Source: Deltaproteobacteria bacterium
Lineage (GTDB): Bacteria > Desulfobacterota_B > Binatia > UBA9968
Assembly: GCA_027297485.1 (NCBI GenBank)
Contig: JAPUHZ010000364.1
Location: 1 to 18,638, forward strand
DNA length: 18,638 bases
Direction of reading: 5' to 3'
Shown piece by piece: positions 6,363-16,401 of this stretch. The translations under genes were made by a program, and so were the position numbers. Within the stretch, counting starts at the first letter, position 1, and each line of letters begins with the position of its first letter. The notes beneath the pieces are model-generated. The model saw only the letters and a list, made by a program, of their open reading frames with translations. It ran no database searches and had not been told where the DNA came from.

Positions 6363-6620
6363 TTAGCCGATCGTCTTAAGTTCCAAAACATCCTTAAGAA
6401 TTAACAATGCCTCTTCTGCTCGCGTTTTCTCCACCATAAGGCGCATCTCACCTACACCCATTGAGCCCATGGCAGGAAAAATCCGATTGAAGTTCTCATT
6501 ATTGATGTAGTAGTAGATGCCTGCAGGATCCAGGACTGACTTGATGAAGAGAATTTCCACCTGTCCTCCCGGACGGTATATCTCAACAAAAGAGTCCACA
6601 GATTTATTATCTTTGCTCAT
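6363..6620 (-). CDS. DUF2007 family protein
   Basis: A small 85-residue protein of the DUF2007 (putative signal-transducing protein) family. The core pattern is visible: a first strand VEIYRPGGQVEILFIKSVLDPAGIYYYINNENF, in which a short loop and helix (about 17-32) separate two strands, then MRLMVEKTRAEEALLILKDVLE at the C-terminal helix. It resembles a ferredoxin-like alpha/beta fold, and the function is unknown family-wide. The ATG at 6620 lacks a clear Shine-Dalgarno sequence (CAATTACTATAAA precedes it). It sits between the OsmC-like gene and rpiB on the same strand. Confidence 0.8.
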   Translation of the reverse strand: MSKDNKSVDSFVEIYRPGGQVEILFIKSVLDPAGIYYYINNENFNRIFPAMGSMGVGEMRLMVEKTRAEEALLILKDVLELKTIG

Positions 6621-6719: not shown

Positions 6720-7286
6720 CTAGACGTTTAAGTTCAGGGAGATCTCTCCCCCGTTCAGAAAGAGGCGAGGGACAACCTCTACGGGATAGCGCAGGGTATT
6801 GGTTGCATAGCAGGAATGCTCCATTGCGCTTAAAAGCTCCACGATCCGTTCCTTCTTCTCCAAACTTTCCAGCTTCAACTCGTAAGTAAACCGTTTGCAC
6901 ACAGTAGGGACGTCAGCAAGTCCAAATTTGCCTCTCTGGTCGAACTCTCCTTTGACTAAAAGCTCCGCCTTCTCAATTTGAACACCCAGATATGACGCAC
7001 ACTGCGTCAGTTGGCTGAGGAGTCAAAAACCCACCGAAGCGACAAGGTATTGCAGCGGCGCGGGGCCTTTCCTGGTGCCTCCCCTCTCCACCGGCTCGTC
7101 GCACGAGATTGTGTATCCGCCGGGGACCTGGGCCTGCTTGAACTGGTCTTGGATGAGGCGGATCTTTGCCTGGTGAACTGTAACGGCTTTTTCAGGGTTG
7201 TTCACGTAAGCCTTGCGGCGCTTTTCAAAGATCTCTTTATGATGCTCGTAATTGATACTACAGCAACTTTCCTCTTTTTCCTCCAT
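6720..7286 (-). CDS. OsmC-family protein with in-frame TGA, probable selenoprotein (Sec88)
   Basis: Read through one in-frame TGA (7025-7023), this is a complete 188-residue OsmC/Ohr-family protein. OsmC proteins are cysteine-based hydroperoxide reductases with a peroxidatic cysteine in the central helix and a resolving cysteine later. Residues 1-55 form a charged N-terminal extension seen in a long OsmC subgroup. CDEPVERGGTRKGPAPLQYLVASVGF (62-87) leads into the TGA at position 88, which aligns with the peroxidatic cysteine. LLSQLTQC follows, and the resolving-type Cys159 is in MEHSCYATNTLRYP near the end. The frame is identical on both sides and ends at TAG. The ATG at 7286 has AAGGAG nine bases upstream. 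A SECIS-like hairpin begins 13 nt after the TGA. It lies 34 bases downstream of the molybdenum hydroxylase gene, probably in the same transcript. The alternative is a pseudogene or sequence error. Confidence 0.8.
6993..7025 (-). promoter_or_regulatory. Bacterial SECIS-like element following the TGA codon
   Basis: On the minus strand the UGA (7025-7023) is followed by 13 nt and then the perfect hairpin UGACGC-AGUGU-GCGUCA (7009-6993). The apical loop is five bases with G in its second position followed by U, and it starts 19 nt after the UGA. Bacterial SECIS elements recognised by SelB lie inside the coding region with the loop about 16-37 nt after UGA and a G/GU in the loop, so position, stem and loop all fit. 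CAG (7017-7015) and CUG could extend the stem across an internal loop. Confidence 0.75.
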
Positions 7287-7320
7287 ATCAATACTCCTTG
7301 TCCTTCTCCGATTAAAACGT

Positions 7321-9561
7321 CTATTTCTCTGCACCCGTTAATTTCCAGAACAACTTCTCGGCAGTGATCGGAAGCTCGAAAGCGCGAACTCCTACGGCAT
7401 CGGCAACAGCGTTGGCAATGGCGGCAGCTGTCGGGACATTGGGAAGTTCTCCTACGGCCTTGCCATGATAGGGAACCGGCCCCGTGGGGCTTTCCAGCAG
7501 GACGGTGGTTAACTTGGGGATCTCTTTAATACAAGGAATTTTAAAATCACCCAGGTTGAGGGTCGTGATGTGGCCGTCCTCCATGGGGGTCTCTTCCATC
7601 AGCGCAAAGCCCAAGCCCATGATAACTCCGCCATCGACCTGGCCTTGATAGGTAAGGGAGTTCAGGACGGTTCCCGTATCGTGCGCCGTGGTGATTTTCT
7701 TCACCTTGATTTGACCCGTATCGGGGTCCACCTCTACCTCTACCACCTGTGCAGCAAATGCAGTTACCGGGGGGTGATCTGCCGGCTCGTGCATTGTCAT
7801 GTGAAAAATCGGCCCGCCGTTTTCCGCCACCGCTATCCCGGCAAGCTTCTGAAAAGAGATTCGTTTATGTCCCTGACCAACGAATTGGTTGCCATTCTGC
7901 CGGACCTTCTCTGACGGACAACCGAGTTGGTGCCCTGCCAGCGCGATAAGCTTTTCACGCACCTCTCGTGCCGCCTTATATACGGCGTGACCTGAAGTAT
8001 TTGTTGACTTGCTACCACCGGTCCCTGGGTCGTAGGGCAAGCTGTCGGTATCCTCGAAGCGGACCTGAATCCGGTTCGGGCTCACACCGAACGTTTCGCT
8101 CACAATTTGCTGAATCACGGTGTAGAATCCAGGCCCAACATCCGGCACTCCGGTCAAAATCGTAATCCGTCCGTCCCCGTCGAGAGTAATAGCAGCGCTG
8201 GCCTTGCCGCTGGGAGTTCCACGCTCATACAAGGCCACGCCTCGCCCACAATACTTCGGTGGTCGTGACTTCCCCCATCCGGAGGCCTTGACTGCTTTCT
8301 TAAGCGTCTGGCGAAAAAGGATGTGTTGCCACTTTTCCCCTAGAGGAGAAGCATCCCCGTCTTTGAGCAGGTTTTGCATCCGGAACTTCACTGGGTCCAG
8401 GCCAAGCTCGCTGGCGATGATGTCAATTTGGGATTCCATGGCAAACACGATCTGCGGGCTTCCCGGTGTCCGGCTCTGCGTGCAGGGGACCTGGTTGGTG
8501 TAGGCGCAATAGGTTATCACATGAATCGCAGGGACCCGATAATAGCTCGCCAGTCGGCGGCCGCCCAATACCGTCACGTAGGGATTTGCCTTAAAGGCCG
8601 CGTAAGCCCCACCGCTGAAGGTAATCTTCGCCTCTATTGCGCAGAGTGTTCCGTCCTGCTGTACTCCGGTGCGCAGCGTAATCACCGCTGGGTGTCTGTG
8701 AGCTGCTGCCAGCAATTCCTCCCCATAGTCCAGAACCATCTTTACCGGCTTCCTCGAGCGTTCCGCCAGGAAATAGCCGATTGGCACATCGACCAGCGAG
8801 ACCTTCCCGCCGAAGTCGCCTCCCACCGACATGATGTGGACTTTGATCCGTTCCCGAGCGATCCCCAGGTCCTGAGCCAACTGGTCACGAAGGCCATAGG
8901 GCGCCTTGTTTGAAGCCCAAACTTCGACTTTCCCCGAGGGATCGATTCGAACCGTGCAGGCATGAGGCTCCAGGTAGCCGTGGTGGGTAAGCTGGGTATG
9001 AAACGTGTGCTCGAAGATCCGCGCGGCTCTCTTAAATCCCGCTTCTAGTTCTCCGTTTTTCCATTCCATGATCGACTGAAGGTTGGGAATTCCTTCAGGC
9101 ACGGATGGCGCATTTTTGTACTGTGACCGATCTTCATGGATAAGGGGTGCAGTCGGACAGAGCGCCTTTACAGGATCATAGACGGCTGGTAATTCTTCAT
9201 ATTCCACGTCAATCAGATTGAGGGCCTCATCGGCTACGTCTCGCCCTTCAGCGGCTACAGCTGCTACCGGATCACCGACAAATCGGACACGTTCGCGCGC
9301 CAGGACCGGCATATCCTTCATTCTCGTGCCGACAAAAACCGGCGGAAGATCCATCCCTGAAAGAACTGTGTGGACACCCGGGAGGTTTTTGGCCTTGGAT
9401 GTGTCGATCCTAATTATACGCGCGTGGGGTACAGGGCTGCGTAAGATCTTGCCCCAAAGGGTGCCCTGAATCGAAAGGTCGCCCGCATACTGCGTCCTCC
9501 CCTTTACTTTGTCTAATCCCTCTACTCGCGGTAGCGGTTTGCCTACAGTCCGGTAAGTCAA
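7321..9561 (-). CDS. Xanthine dehydrogenase/aldehyde oxidase-family molybdopterin-binding (large) subunit
   Basis: A 746-residue molybdenum hydroxylase catalytic subunit that inserts oxygen from water into a C-H bond of an aldehyde, purine or N-heterocycle. The N-terminal a/b hammerhead domain is at about 15-120 (RVEGLDKVKGRTQYAGD, then VRFVGDPVAAVAAEG). The molybdopterin-binding region has GGDFGGK near 250, an SRTPGSPQ loop in place of the common FRAPGxPQ, and the catalytic glutamate Glu705 in GKAVGELPNVPTAAAIANA. The length is normal for this subunit. The start is a TTG immediately after an in-frame stop, with GGGGGTAAAGC before it. No FAD-binding (CoxM-like) or 2Fe-2S (CoxS-like) subunit gene is adjacent, and neither domain is fused, so the electron acceptor is unknown. 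The OsmC-like selenoprotein gene follows 34 bases downstream. Substrate cannot be assigned. Confidence 0.92.
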   Translation of the reverse strand: MTYRTVGKPLPRVEGLDKVKGRTQYAGDLSIQGTLWGKILRSPVPHARIIRIDTSKAKNLPGVHTVLSGMDLPPVFVGTRMKDMPVLARERVRFVGDPVAAVAAEGRDVADEALNLIDVEYEELPAVYDPVKALCPTAPLIHEDRSQYKNAPSVPEGIPNLQSIMEWKNGELEAGFKRAARIFEHTFHTQLTHHGYLEPHACTVRIDPSGKVEVWASNKAPYGLRDQLAQDLGIARERIKVHIMSVGGDFGGKVSLVDVPIGYFLAERSRKPVKMVLDYGEELLAAAHRHPAVITLRTGVQQDGTLCAIEAKITFSGGAYAAFKANPYVTVLGGRRLASYYRVPAIHVITYCAYTNQVPCTQSRTPGSPQIVFAMESQIDIIASELGLDPVKFRMQNLLKDGDASPLGEKWQHILFRQTLKKAVKASGWGKSRPPKYCGRGVALYERGTPSGKASAAITLDGDGRITILTGVPDVGPGFYTVIQQIVSETFGVSPNRIQVRFEDTDSLPYDPGTGGSKSTNTSGHAVYKAAREVREKLIALAGHQLGCPSEKVRQNGNQFVGQGHKRISFQKLAGIAVAENGGPIFHMTMHEPADHPPVTAFAAQVVEVEVDPDTGQIKVKKITTAHDTGTVLNSLTYQGQVDGGVIMGLGFALMEETPMEDGHITTLNLGDFKIPCIKEIPKLTTVLLESPTGPVPYHGKAVGELPNVPTAAAIANAVADAVGVRAFELPITAEKLFWKLTGAEK

Positions 9562-15309: not shown

Positions 15310-16401
15310 ATGCCGTTCAACGATCTTAGAGAATACATTGCCTGTTTGGAGAAAGAGGGGGAAGTGCAAAGGATTGACAATGAAGTCCAACCGGTTTTTG
15401 AGGTCGGAGCAGTTATCTGCCGCTCCTATGACTTACGTGCGCCGGCCCCATTTTTCCTTAACCTCAGGGGATACCCTGAGAATCGTATCTTCGGCGCGCC
15501 CATTAGCCTTAGTCGCCGAAAGGATTGGTCCTTTTCTCGATTCGCCACTTCCATGGATATGCCGCCTCAATCCACCGCGCTGGAGATTATCGAGCAATAC
15601 CTACGGCGGCTCAAGAAGCCGATCAAGCCGACTCTGATCAGAGATGGGCCATGTAAAGAAAACATCTTGAAAGGTGAGGCCGTGGATCTACAGATCTTCC
15701 CCGCCCCACTGCTGTGCAGGGGAGATGCAGGACCAAGCTTGGGAACATGGCATGCCACCATCACTAAGGACCCGGAAACAGGAGTTTCTAATCCTAACTG
15801 GAGGCTCCATCGCCTAGTGATCCGCGACAAGACGAGCCTGCGAGAGCTTCCTCACCCTTCGAAGACCATGAGGGCTCACAATGAAACGAACGACAGGCCA
15901 CAGCGTAAGTCCACGGAGTTTGCTATCGCCATAGGCACCGAACCGGTCACCCCATGGGTGGCTGCTACGCGCCTGCCTTCTAGTGTCTCCACTCCAGATT
16001 CGGATATCATAGGGGGAATTCGCGGTGCTCCTTTGGAGTTGGTCCAGTGTGAAACGGTAGATCTCGCGGTCCCAGCGACTTCGGAGATCGTCCTTGAAGG
16101 CCTCATCCCGCCGAGAAAGCGAGGGGAAGAACCGATCTATCATGTCACGGCGATCACTTACCGCAATAACCCGATTCTCCCAGTGACCTATATCCGGACA
16201 CCGGTCGATGACGTGGCGGTTGCCCTTTCTCTAACCGAGGCGGCCAACCTCCTCGAAGAAGCAACCAACACCGGAATTCCCGTGACGCTAGATGACTCCC
16301 TTGCTCATCTGGCTGTTGATAATTTTTGGCCCCAAGCGGTCCGGGATAAAATTCTCCAAAATTGGCGGGCTTACGGCTACAGAGAAGAAGGTCCAGGATG
16401 A
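15310..16401 (+). CDS. UbiD-family (de)carboxylase-like protein, shortened
   Basis: UbiD enzymes are prenylated-FMN-dependent reversible decarboxylases of aromatic or unsaturated acids. This protein has the family N-terminus (MPFNDLREYIACLEKEGEVQRI), the cofactor-region NWRLHRLVIRDK (164-175), AIAIGTEPVTPWVAAT (205-220), GGIRGAPLELVQCETVDLAVPATSEIVLEG (235-264) and HVTAITYRNNPI (278-289). Two things are missing. The EGPFGExxGYY-type segment expected just after residue 266 is absent (only PRKRGEE links the flanks). The usual ~90-100 residues between LLEEATNTGIPV and the C-terminal KILQNWRAYGY are also absent. The protein is 363 residues rather than about 450-500, with no stop or frameshift. 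It may be a decayed or non-catalytic paralogue or a subunit. The ATG follows TTGGGGGGAAATC. Its TGA is directly followed by the ATG of the acyltransferase gene. Confidence 0.85.
   Translation: MPFNDLREYIACLEKEGEVQRIDNEVQPVFEVGAVICRSYDLRAPAPFFLNLRGYPENRIFGAPISLSRRKDWSFSRFATSMDMPPQSTALEIIEQYLRRLKKPIKPTLIRDGPCKENILKGEAVDLQIFPAPLLCRGDAGPSLGTWHATITKDPETGVSNPNWRLHRLVIRDKTSLRELPHPSKTMRAHNETNDRPQRKSTEFAIAIGTEPVTPWVAATRLPSSVSTPDSDIIGGIRGAPLELVQCETVDLAVPATSEIVLEGLIPPRKRGEEPIYHVTAITYRNNPILPVTYIRTPVDDVAVALSLTEAANLLEEATNTGIPVTLDDSLAHLAVDNFWPQAVRDKILQNWRAYGYREEGPG

Follow-up and report, generated by a model that had tools for sequence, protein, structure and literature searches.

Reading frame and domain content

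The minus strand of the window, which is the whole stretch of 18,638 nucleotides analysed here, holds two short reading frames separated by a TGA codon, and raises the question of whether this codon breaks an OsmC-family gene or is read as selenocysteine (Sec). The comparisons below indicate, with a probability of about 0.96, that the gene encodes an OsmC-like selenoprotein with Sec at codon 88; this figure leaves the substrate aside. The reading is supported by the conserved TGA, the exchange of Sec with Cys among relatives, a covarying SECIS-type stem, constraint on the codons that follow the TGA, and the Sec machinery encoded by a relative's genome. The features of the gene are as follows.

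6720..7286, minus strand: predicted gene of an OsmC-like selenoprotein of 188 residues, UGA88 being read as Sec (frame, PF02566, NF041052 and relatives)
7023..7025, minus strand: in-frame TGA, codon 88, aligned with the first (peroxidatic-type) Cys of the family (TGA or Cys in relatives)
6810..6812, minus strand: codon of Cys159, which may act as the resolving partner of Sec88 (no variation across aligned sets of 8 and 15 sequences; putative role)
7294..7299, minus strand: Shine-Dalgarno-like AAGGAG, 7 nt upstream of the ATG at 7286 (read from the sequence)

The frames 7334..7023 (with its ATG at 7286) and 6902..6720 lie in one phase and merge when the TGA is read, as an earlier, sequence-only reading of this DNA had proposed. 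From the ATG at 7286, translation with the TGA as U gives 188 residues, with U at position 88 and a TAG terminus at 6722-6720; the TGA at 7025-7023 is the sole internal stop of the frame 7286-6720. The Pfam domain PF02566 (OsmC) spans the TGA (residues 70-171, E 2.9e-12), and the NCBIfam model NF041052, "OsmC-related (seleno)protein", scores 129.3 bits (cut-off 95) over residues 43-179, thus covering the domain of the protein and leaving its first 42 residues outside. Two alignments, one of 8 and one of 15 chosen sequences, have only U or C at position 88 and an invariant Cys159.

Several details of the sequence-only reading were borne out by these results: the placement of residue 88 after LQYLVASVGF, the intact frame and TAG end with an OsmC domain continuous over the TGA, the retention of Cys159, and the ribosome binding site, found as AAGGAG at 7299-7294. 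The long N-terminal extension, which had been regarded as special to this protein, lost that status, since the whole part is common to the relatives L001 and L153, and three Cys forms from Rhodospirillales align from residue 11. A search of the window against Rfam gave no family at cut-off, and promoter and terminator scans of the window were at about the level of shuffled sequence.

Conservation of the TGA and exchange with cysteine

A scan of genome contigs yielded 80 loci. The best relative, L001 (Deltaproteobacteria bacterium isolate DP_1), is 76% identical. Both it and the next nearest relative found (75% identical) contain a single TGA, which coincides with codon 88 of the window gene. 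Three loci from Rhodospirillales (L002-L004), 33-35% identical, have Cys at the codon-88 column, as does L011, whose frame is broken just downstream. In a phylum sample of 395 genomes, seven places scored over the NF041052 cut-off; one TGA was found in five of them (two in G001, two in G043 and one in G206), and those in G315 and G275 are stop-free. This cut-off was also passed by all seven relatives tested, namely L001, L153, L218, L214 and L087, which have TGA, and L226 and L002, which have Cys.

Searched with the window protein (E <= 1e-12), the class sample had 61 matches, spread over 33 of 148 genomes. At least one TGA occurs in 54 of these matches, including one with two TGA codons and one with a TGA and a TAG, and seven are without; among the best 18 of the 61 matches, all 18 carry TGA. 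A joint HMM search of the fetched loci resolved 70 distinct stretches, 59 with TGA. In 58 of these 59 the TGA comes after a common helix motif (GF, AF, SF or GL, then U, then LL, ML or MF); only the distant L140 departs from it. At the TGA position, GFCM is found in six orthologues (L170, L171, L175, L176, L177 and L185). The alignment called for in the sequence-only reading, which expected Cys in relatives where the window has TGA, finds it in these six; random disruption of the relatives had been named there as a ground for refutation, and codon 88 shows TGA or Cys instead.

The Sec/Cys label required two changes on a quick tree of 68 rows, in which many forks stayed open and some branches were long. 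It comprises 64 of the 70 stretches plus four Cys loci from the contig scan; six distant or broken frames (L138 twice, L139, L140, L142 and one frame of L180) were left out. All six Cys-clade rows group in a single starred clade, placed next to the Sec row L163 (support 87). Five of the six Cys-clade genomes (G512, G514, G515, G516 and G527, not G517) also hold a different OsmC paralogue that carries TGA, so the exchange of Sec for Cys was not forced by the loss of Sec decoding. The group thus offers a natural contrast, in which one clade has Cys for Sec and a Sec-type paralogue is kept in most of its genomes. Multiple TGA-bearing OsmC-like matches per genome were also seen, four in G497 and three each in G519, G521 and G522.

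Selenocysteine machinery

The genome of L001 (G001) contains, over cut-off, selA (611.8 bits), selB (400.2 bits) and tRNA-Sec (78.3 bits). A lack of Sec machinery had been named in the sequence-only reading as a ground for refutation; in the relatives examined, this machinery is present. Across the class, selA was found over cut-off in 123 of 148 genomes and tRNA-Sec in 107 of 148, the latter search having used stricter filters at which some weak matches were lost. By hand counts, the 31 genomes with a TGA copy include 28 with selA and 23 with tRNA-Sec; among the 117 genomes without such a copy, 95 have selA (Fisher p 0.29) and 84 have tRNA-Sec (p 1.0). No association between the TGA copy and either gene was thus seen across the 148 genomes, because most genomes of the class have selA and tRNA-Sec and the machinery is not discriminating. 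In G206 and G515 the TGA copy is present and neither selA nor tRNA-Sec was found over cut-off; our guess is that these absences come from incomplete assemblies.

SECIS-type stem-loop

Behind the TGA lies an inverted repeat with the form of a bacterial SECIS element.

6993..7009, minus strand: SECIS-type stem-loop UGACGCA-GUG-UGCGUCA, stem of 7 bp, loop 20 nt past the UGA (fold, covariation, and pairing in Sec against Cys forms)

Published criteria for bacterial SECIS elements include a loop of 3-9 nt, a stem of 4-16 bp, a G in the first two loop positions, a spacing of 16-37 nt and an energy of -7.5 kcal/mol or lower (PMC13188914), and the window element lies within all of these limits. The hairpin has a fold energy of -15.1 kcal/mol in stretches of 46 and 56 nt. 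Compared with shuffled sequences it is only mildly better (z -1.6 for 46 nt, -1.1 for 56 nt and -1.3 for 81 nt), and the fold of the single window sequence is therefore weak evidence.

The alignment of relatives includes 51 of the 59 TGA stretches, the distant L140 and seven with identical DNA being left out. The seven stem pairs are formed in 341 of 357 cells (95.5%); four of the seven pairs have changed on both sides and two never vary. Stem covariation reaches 0.493, against a shuffled mean of 0.167, with none of 500 shuffles as high and a best slid control of 0.210. These controls lean towards the window structure, since the pairing scheme came from the window and the sequences share ancestry. 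Two of the five measures were not above shuffles (322 of 500 as high for both-side changes, 286 of 500 for pair types). RNAalifold, unaided, predicted six of the seven pairs.

Pairing in the stem also differs in degree between Sec and Cys forms. All seven pairs are formed in 42 of the 59 Sec stretches, six in 14, five in 2 and four in 1, so that six or seven pairs occur in 56 of 59 Sec stretches versus one of ten Cys rows. These ten are the six of the Cys clade, which form 1, 1, 5, 2, 6 and 5 of the seven pairs (three of the six at 5 or 6), and L002, L003, L004 and L006, which form 2, 5, 2 and 4. The stem is thus weaker in the Cys forms, yet it is not gone in all of them. Hairpin energy did not separate the forms (mean of -10.2 kcal/mol for Sec, -1.7 to -13.6 kcal/mol for Cys).

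Selection on both sides of the TGA

Comparison with L001 gave a pN of 0.122 and a pS of 0.811 upstream of the TGA, and 0.152 and 0.765 downstream; with L153 the values were 0.135 and 0.802 upstream, and 0.150 and 0.700 downstream. Synonymous sites are near saturation, and for this reason no ratio of pN to pS is quoted. These values indicate that the codons downstream of the TGA are under purifying selection. Among 128 codons with the same residue in the window gene, L001 and L153, 33 are identical, seven of them in one run at residues 91-97 that overlaps the stem; a run of such length was reached in 14 of 20000 shuffles.

Alternative explanations for the TGA

If the gene were broken, the TGA would be a nonsense mutation in a decaying gene. 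The catalogue of proteins seems at first to agree with this, since a protein database search returned 10 matches, each covering at most 52% of the query, and the six of these viewed are separate front or back halves; close relatives are present in that database only as such halves. Decay is nevertheless very improbable, given the single TGA kept in relatives 59-76% identical, the purifying selection past it and a frame with no further stop. A pseudogene was ruled out on the conserved TGA and the continuing selection.

An error of sequencing or assembly that turned TGC or TGT into TGA would fit the Cys that some orthologues have at the codon-88 site. The same TGA is found in other genomes, with a conserved stem behind it, which makes such an error very unlikely, and it has an even smaller share of our confidence than a broken gene. 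We give as little credence to the reading of UGA without Sec, either as an ordinary amino acid throughout the organism or by unspecific read-through. The frame is indeed open when TGA is taken as sense, but TGA terminates five of 16 ORFs checked in the window, so there is no general change of the code; besides, the residue exchanged with TGA is Cys and the SECIS-type stem covaries.

Relation to known OsmC-like selenoproteins

A 2005 paper on the Sargasso Sea described OsmC-like selenoproteins under COG1765, three of them in its Table 1 (PMC1088965), in agreement with the statement of the sequence-only reading that such proteins are known from metagenome surveys. The Sargasso Sea protein resembles that of the window in having a predicted Sec and a bacterial stem-loop behind the UGA (PMC1088965). 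Two later reviews tabulate its motif as UxxT (PMC13188914, PMC9312934) and, compared by this motif, the window protein differs in having UxxS (U-L-L-S). The hint of novelty in the sequence-only reading is weakened, because the family is described and has its own NCBIfam model. The present locus would add a strongly supported lineage to a family first known from three metagenome sequences.

Predicted structure and putative function

An AlphaFold2 model built with 15 sequences had moderate confidence (mean pLDDT 72.8, pTM 0.66). Residue 88 falls within a long helix (77-100) and residue 159 between the helices 145-158 and 160-165. A Foldseek search against the PDB (E <= 0.001) matched OsmC and Ohr structures, the best being 1lql_A (E 2.9e-6, TM-scores 0.48 and 0.63), and sequence matches to solved structures were weak (2opl, E 9.6e-6; 3cje, E 0.0047). 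According to the model, the protein would share with the OsmC/Ohr thiol peroxidases the fold and two conserved redox positions, the first in the central helix, where the reactive Cys of Ohr/OsmC is located (PMC5962072), and would differ from them by having Sec where they have Cys. Arg68, in the Gly-rich loop ERGG, is nearly invariant among the 15 chosen sequences and may, by analogy, correspond to the catalytic Arg that OsmC has in a Gly-rich loop (PMC5962072).

For the expression of the protein, we propose that SelB bound to the stem-loop 6993-7009 of the mRNA would deliver Sec-tRNA to UGA codon 88, which would allow the full 188-residue protein to be made. Within the OsmC/Ohr fold, Sec88 would then lie in the central helix, at the site of the peroxidatic Cys of the Cys forms, and in the simplest reading would most likely attack a peroxide or a disulfide. 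Cys159 could resolve it as a selenenyl sulfide, to be reduced by a cellular dithiol; the conservation of both positions is consistent with a U88-C159 pair. We infer Sec insertion in the window organism, the catalytic cycle and the substrate, and the putative function is that of a thiol peroxidase or reductase based on Sec, in which Cys159 would be the partner residue.

A selenoprotein that acts as a thiol-disulfide or sulfur-transfer enzyme, and not as a peroxidase, would be compatible with the selenoprotein reading. It is a real possibility, with a chance well short of even. In its favour, the activity of YhfA-type OsmC proteins is given as unknown (PMC5962072), and COG1765, YhfA, is the group to which the OsmC-like selenoprotein in the literature is assigned (PMC9312934). 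A peroxidase is favoured by Ohr and OsmC proper, which are thiol peroxidases (PMC5962072), and by the locus L218, where an AhpC/TSA frame with its own TGA stands directly after OsmC.

Genomic context

The gene is flanked on its own strand by the following.

7321..9561, minus strand: molybdenum hydroxylase large subunit, with its stop 34 nt upstream of the OsmC start (ORF and domain match)
6363..6620, minus strand: DUF2007 protein, downstream of OsmC (ORF and domain match)

Among the window proteins searched, no FAD or 2Fe-2S subunit was recognised beside the molybdenum (Mo) hydroxylase. This neighbour had been called unusual, a description that does not hold, since the same-strand pair also occurs elsewhere: the Mo hydroxylase lies directly upstream of OsmC in eight places (the window, L218, L226, L227, L175, L176, L177 and L185), and in three more (L214-L216) the Mo gene is about 5 kb off. 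The underlying set has 105 loci with an OsmC match, 16 of them also with a Mo match, some places having been fetched twice and many flanks being short. The pair is present in two of 19 Sec-form places of the subfamily (the window and L218), the 19 being the window plus the best 18 class matches, and in all six Cys-clade places.

Among the matches listed, the window Mo gene is 76% identical to one on contig C317 of G508, whose OsmC match is on another contig, and 43-45% identical to the OsmC-paired copies in G522, G514, G512 and G527. Genes of this kind are numerous, with up to 77 first-look candidates per genome. Because the window copy is not closest to the paired ones and such genes abound, the pairing is a lead only. 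As functional evidence the adjacency is weakened, the window copy being closest to other copies among the matches listed. It is doubtful that the OsmC protein acts as dedicated partner to a Mo hydroxylase of the xanthine-dehydrogenase type, either by clearing the peroxide which that enzyme makes or by maintaining its active site, in some cases together with a second Sec peroxiredoxin. Among the titles and abstract openings listed for OsmC and selenium, none mentions a link between an OsmC selenoprotein and a Mo hydroxylase.

The peroxiredoxin-type frame of L218 (4265-4810, minus strand) starts 9 nt after the OsmC stop and reads FYRGRWUPWC around its in-frame TGA; its NCBIfam matches, all below cut-off, are to thioredoxin-dependent peroxidase and SelL-related models. 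A similar AhpC/TSA frame with an in-frame TGA is found in L226 (4342-4890, minus strand), beyond an IS200-like transposase ORF. Both frames are probably further selenoproteins.

Among 18 loci compared by their ORFs of at least 80 aa, the window shares with the others, besides OsmC and the Mo gene, only a UbiD gene (15310-16401) and frames antisense to the OsmC or Mo gene. A search for rpiB in the 148 class genomes at a limit of 1e-45, intended to place the window within the class, gave no match and is uninformative on that placement. The UbiD-family decarboxylase of the window contains an N-terminal and a middle domain. Its 363 aa make it shorter than the matched UbiD-type models (433-502 positions), and it is followed by an acyltransferase gene that begins on the adjacent base. 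A 449-aa frame from the UbiD sequence cluster is found close to OsmC in L213-L216, on the opposite strand.
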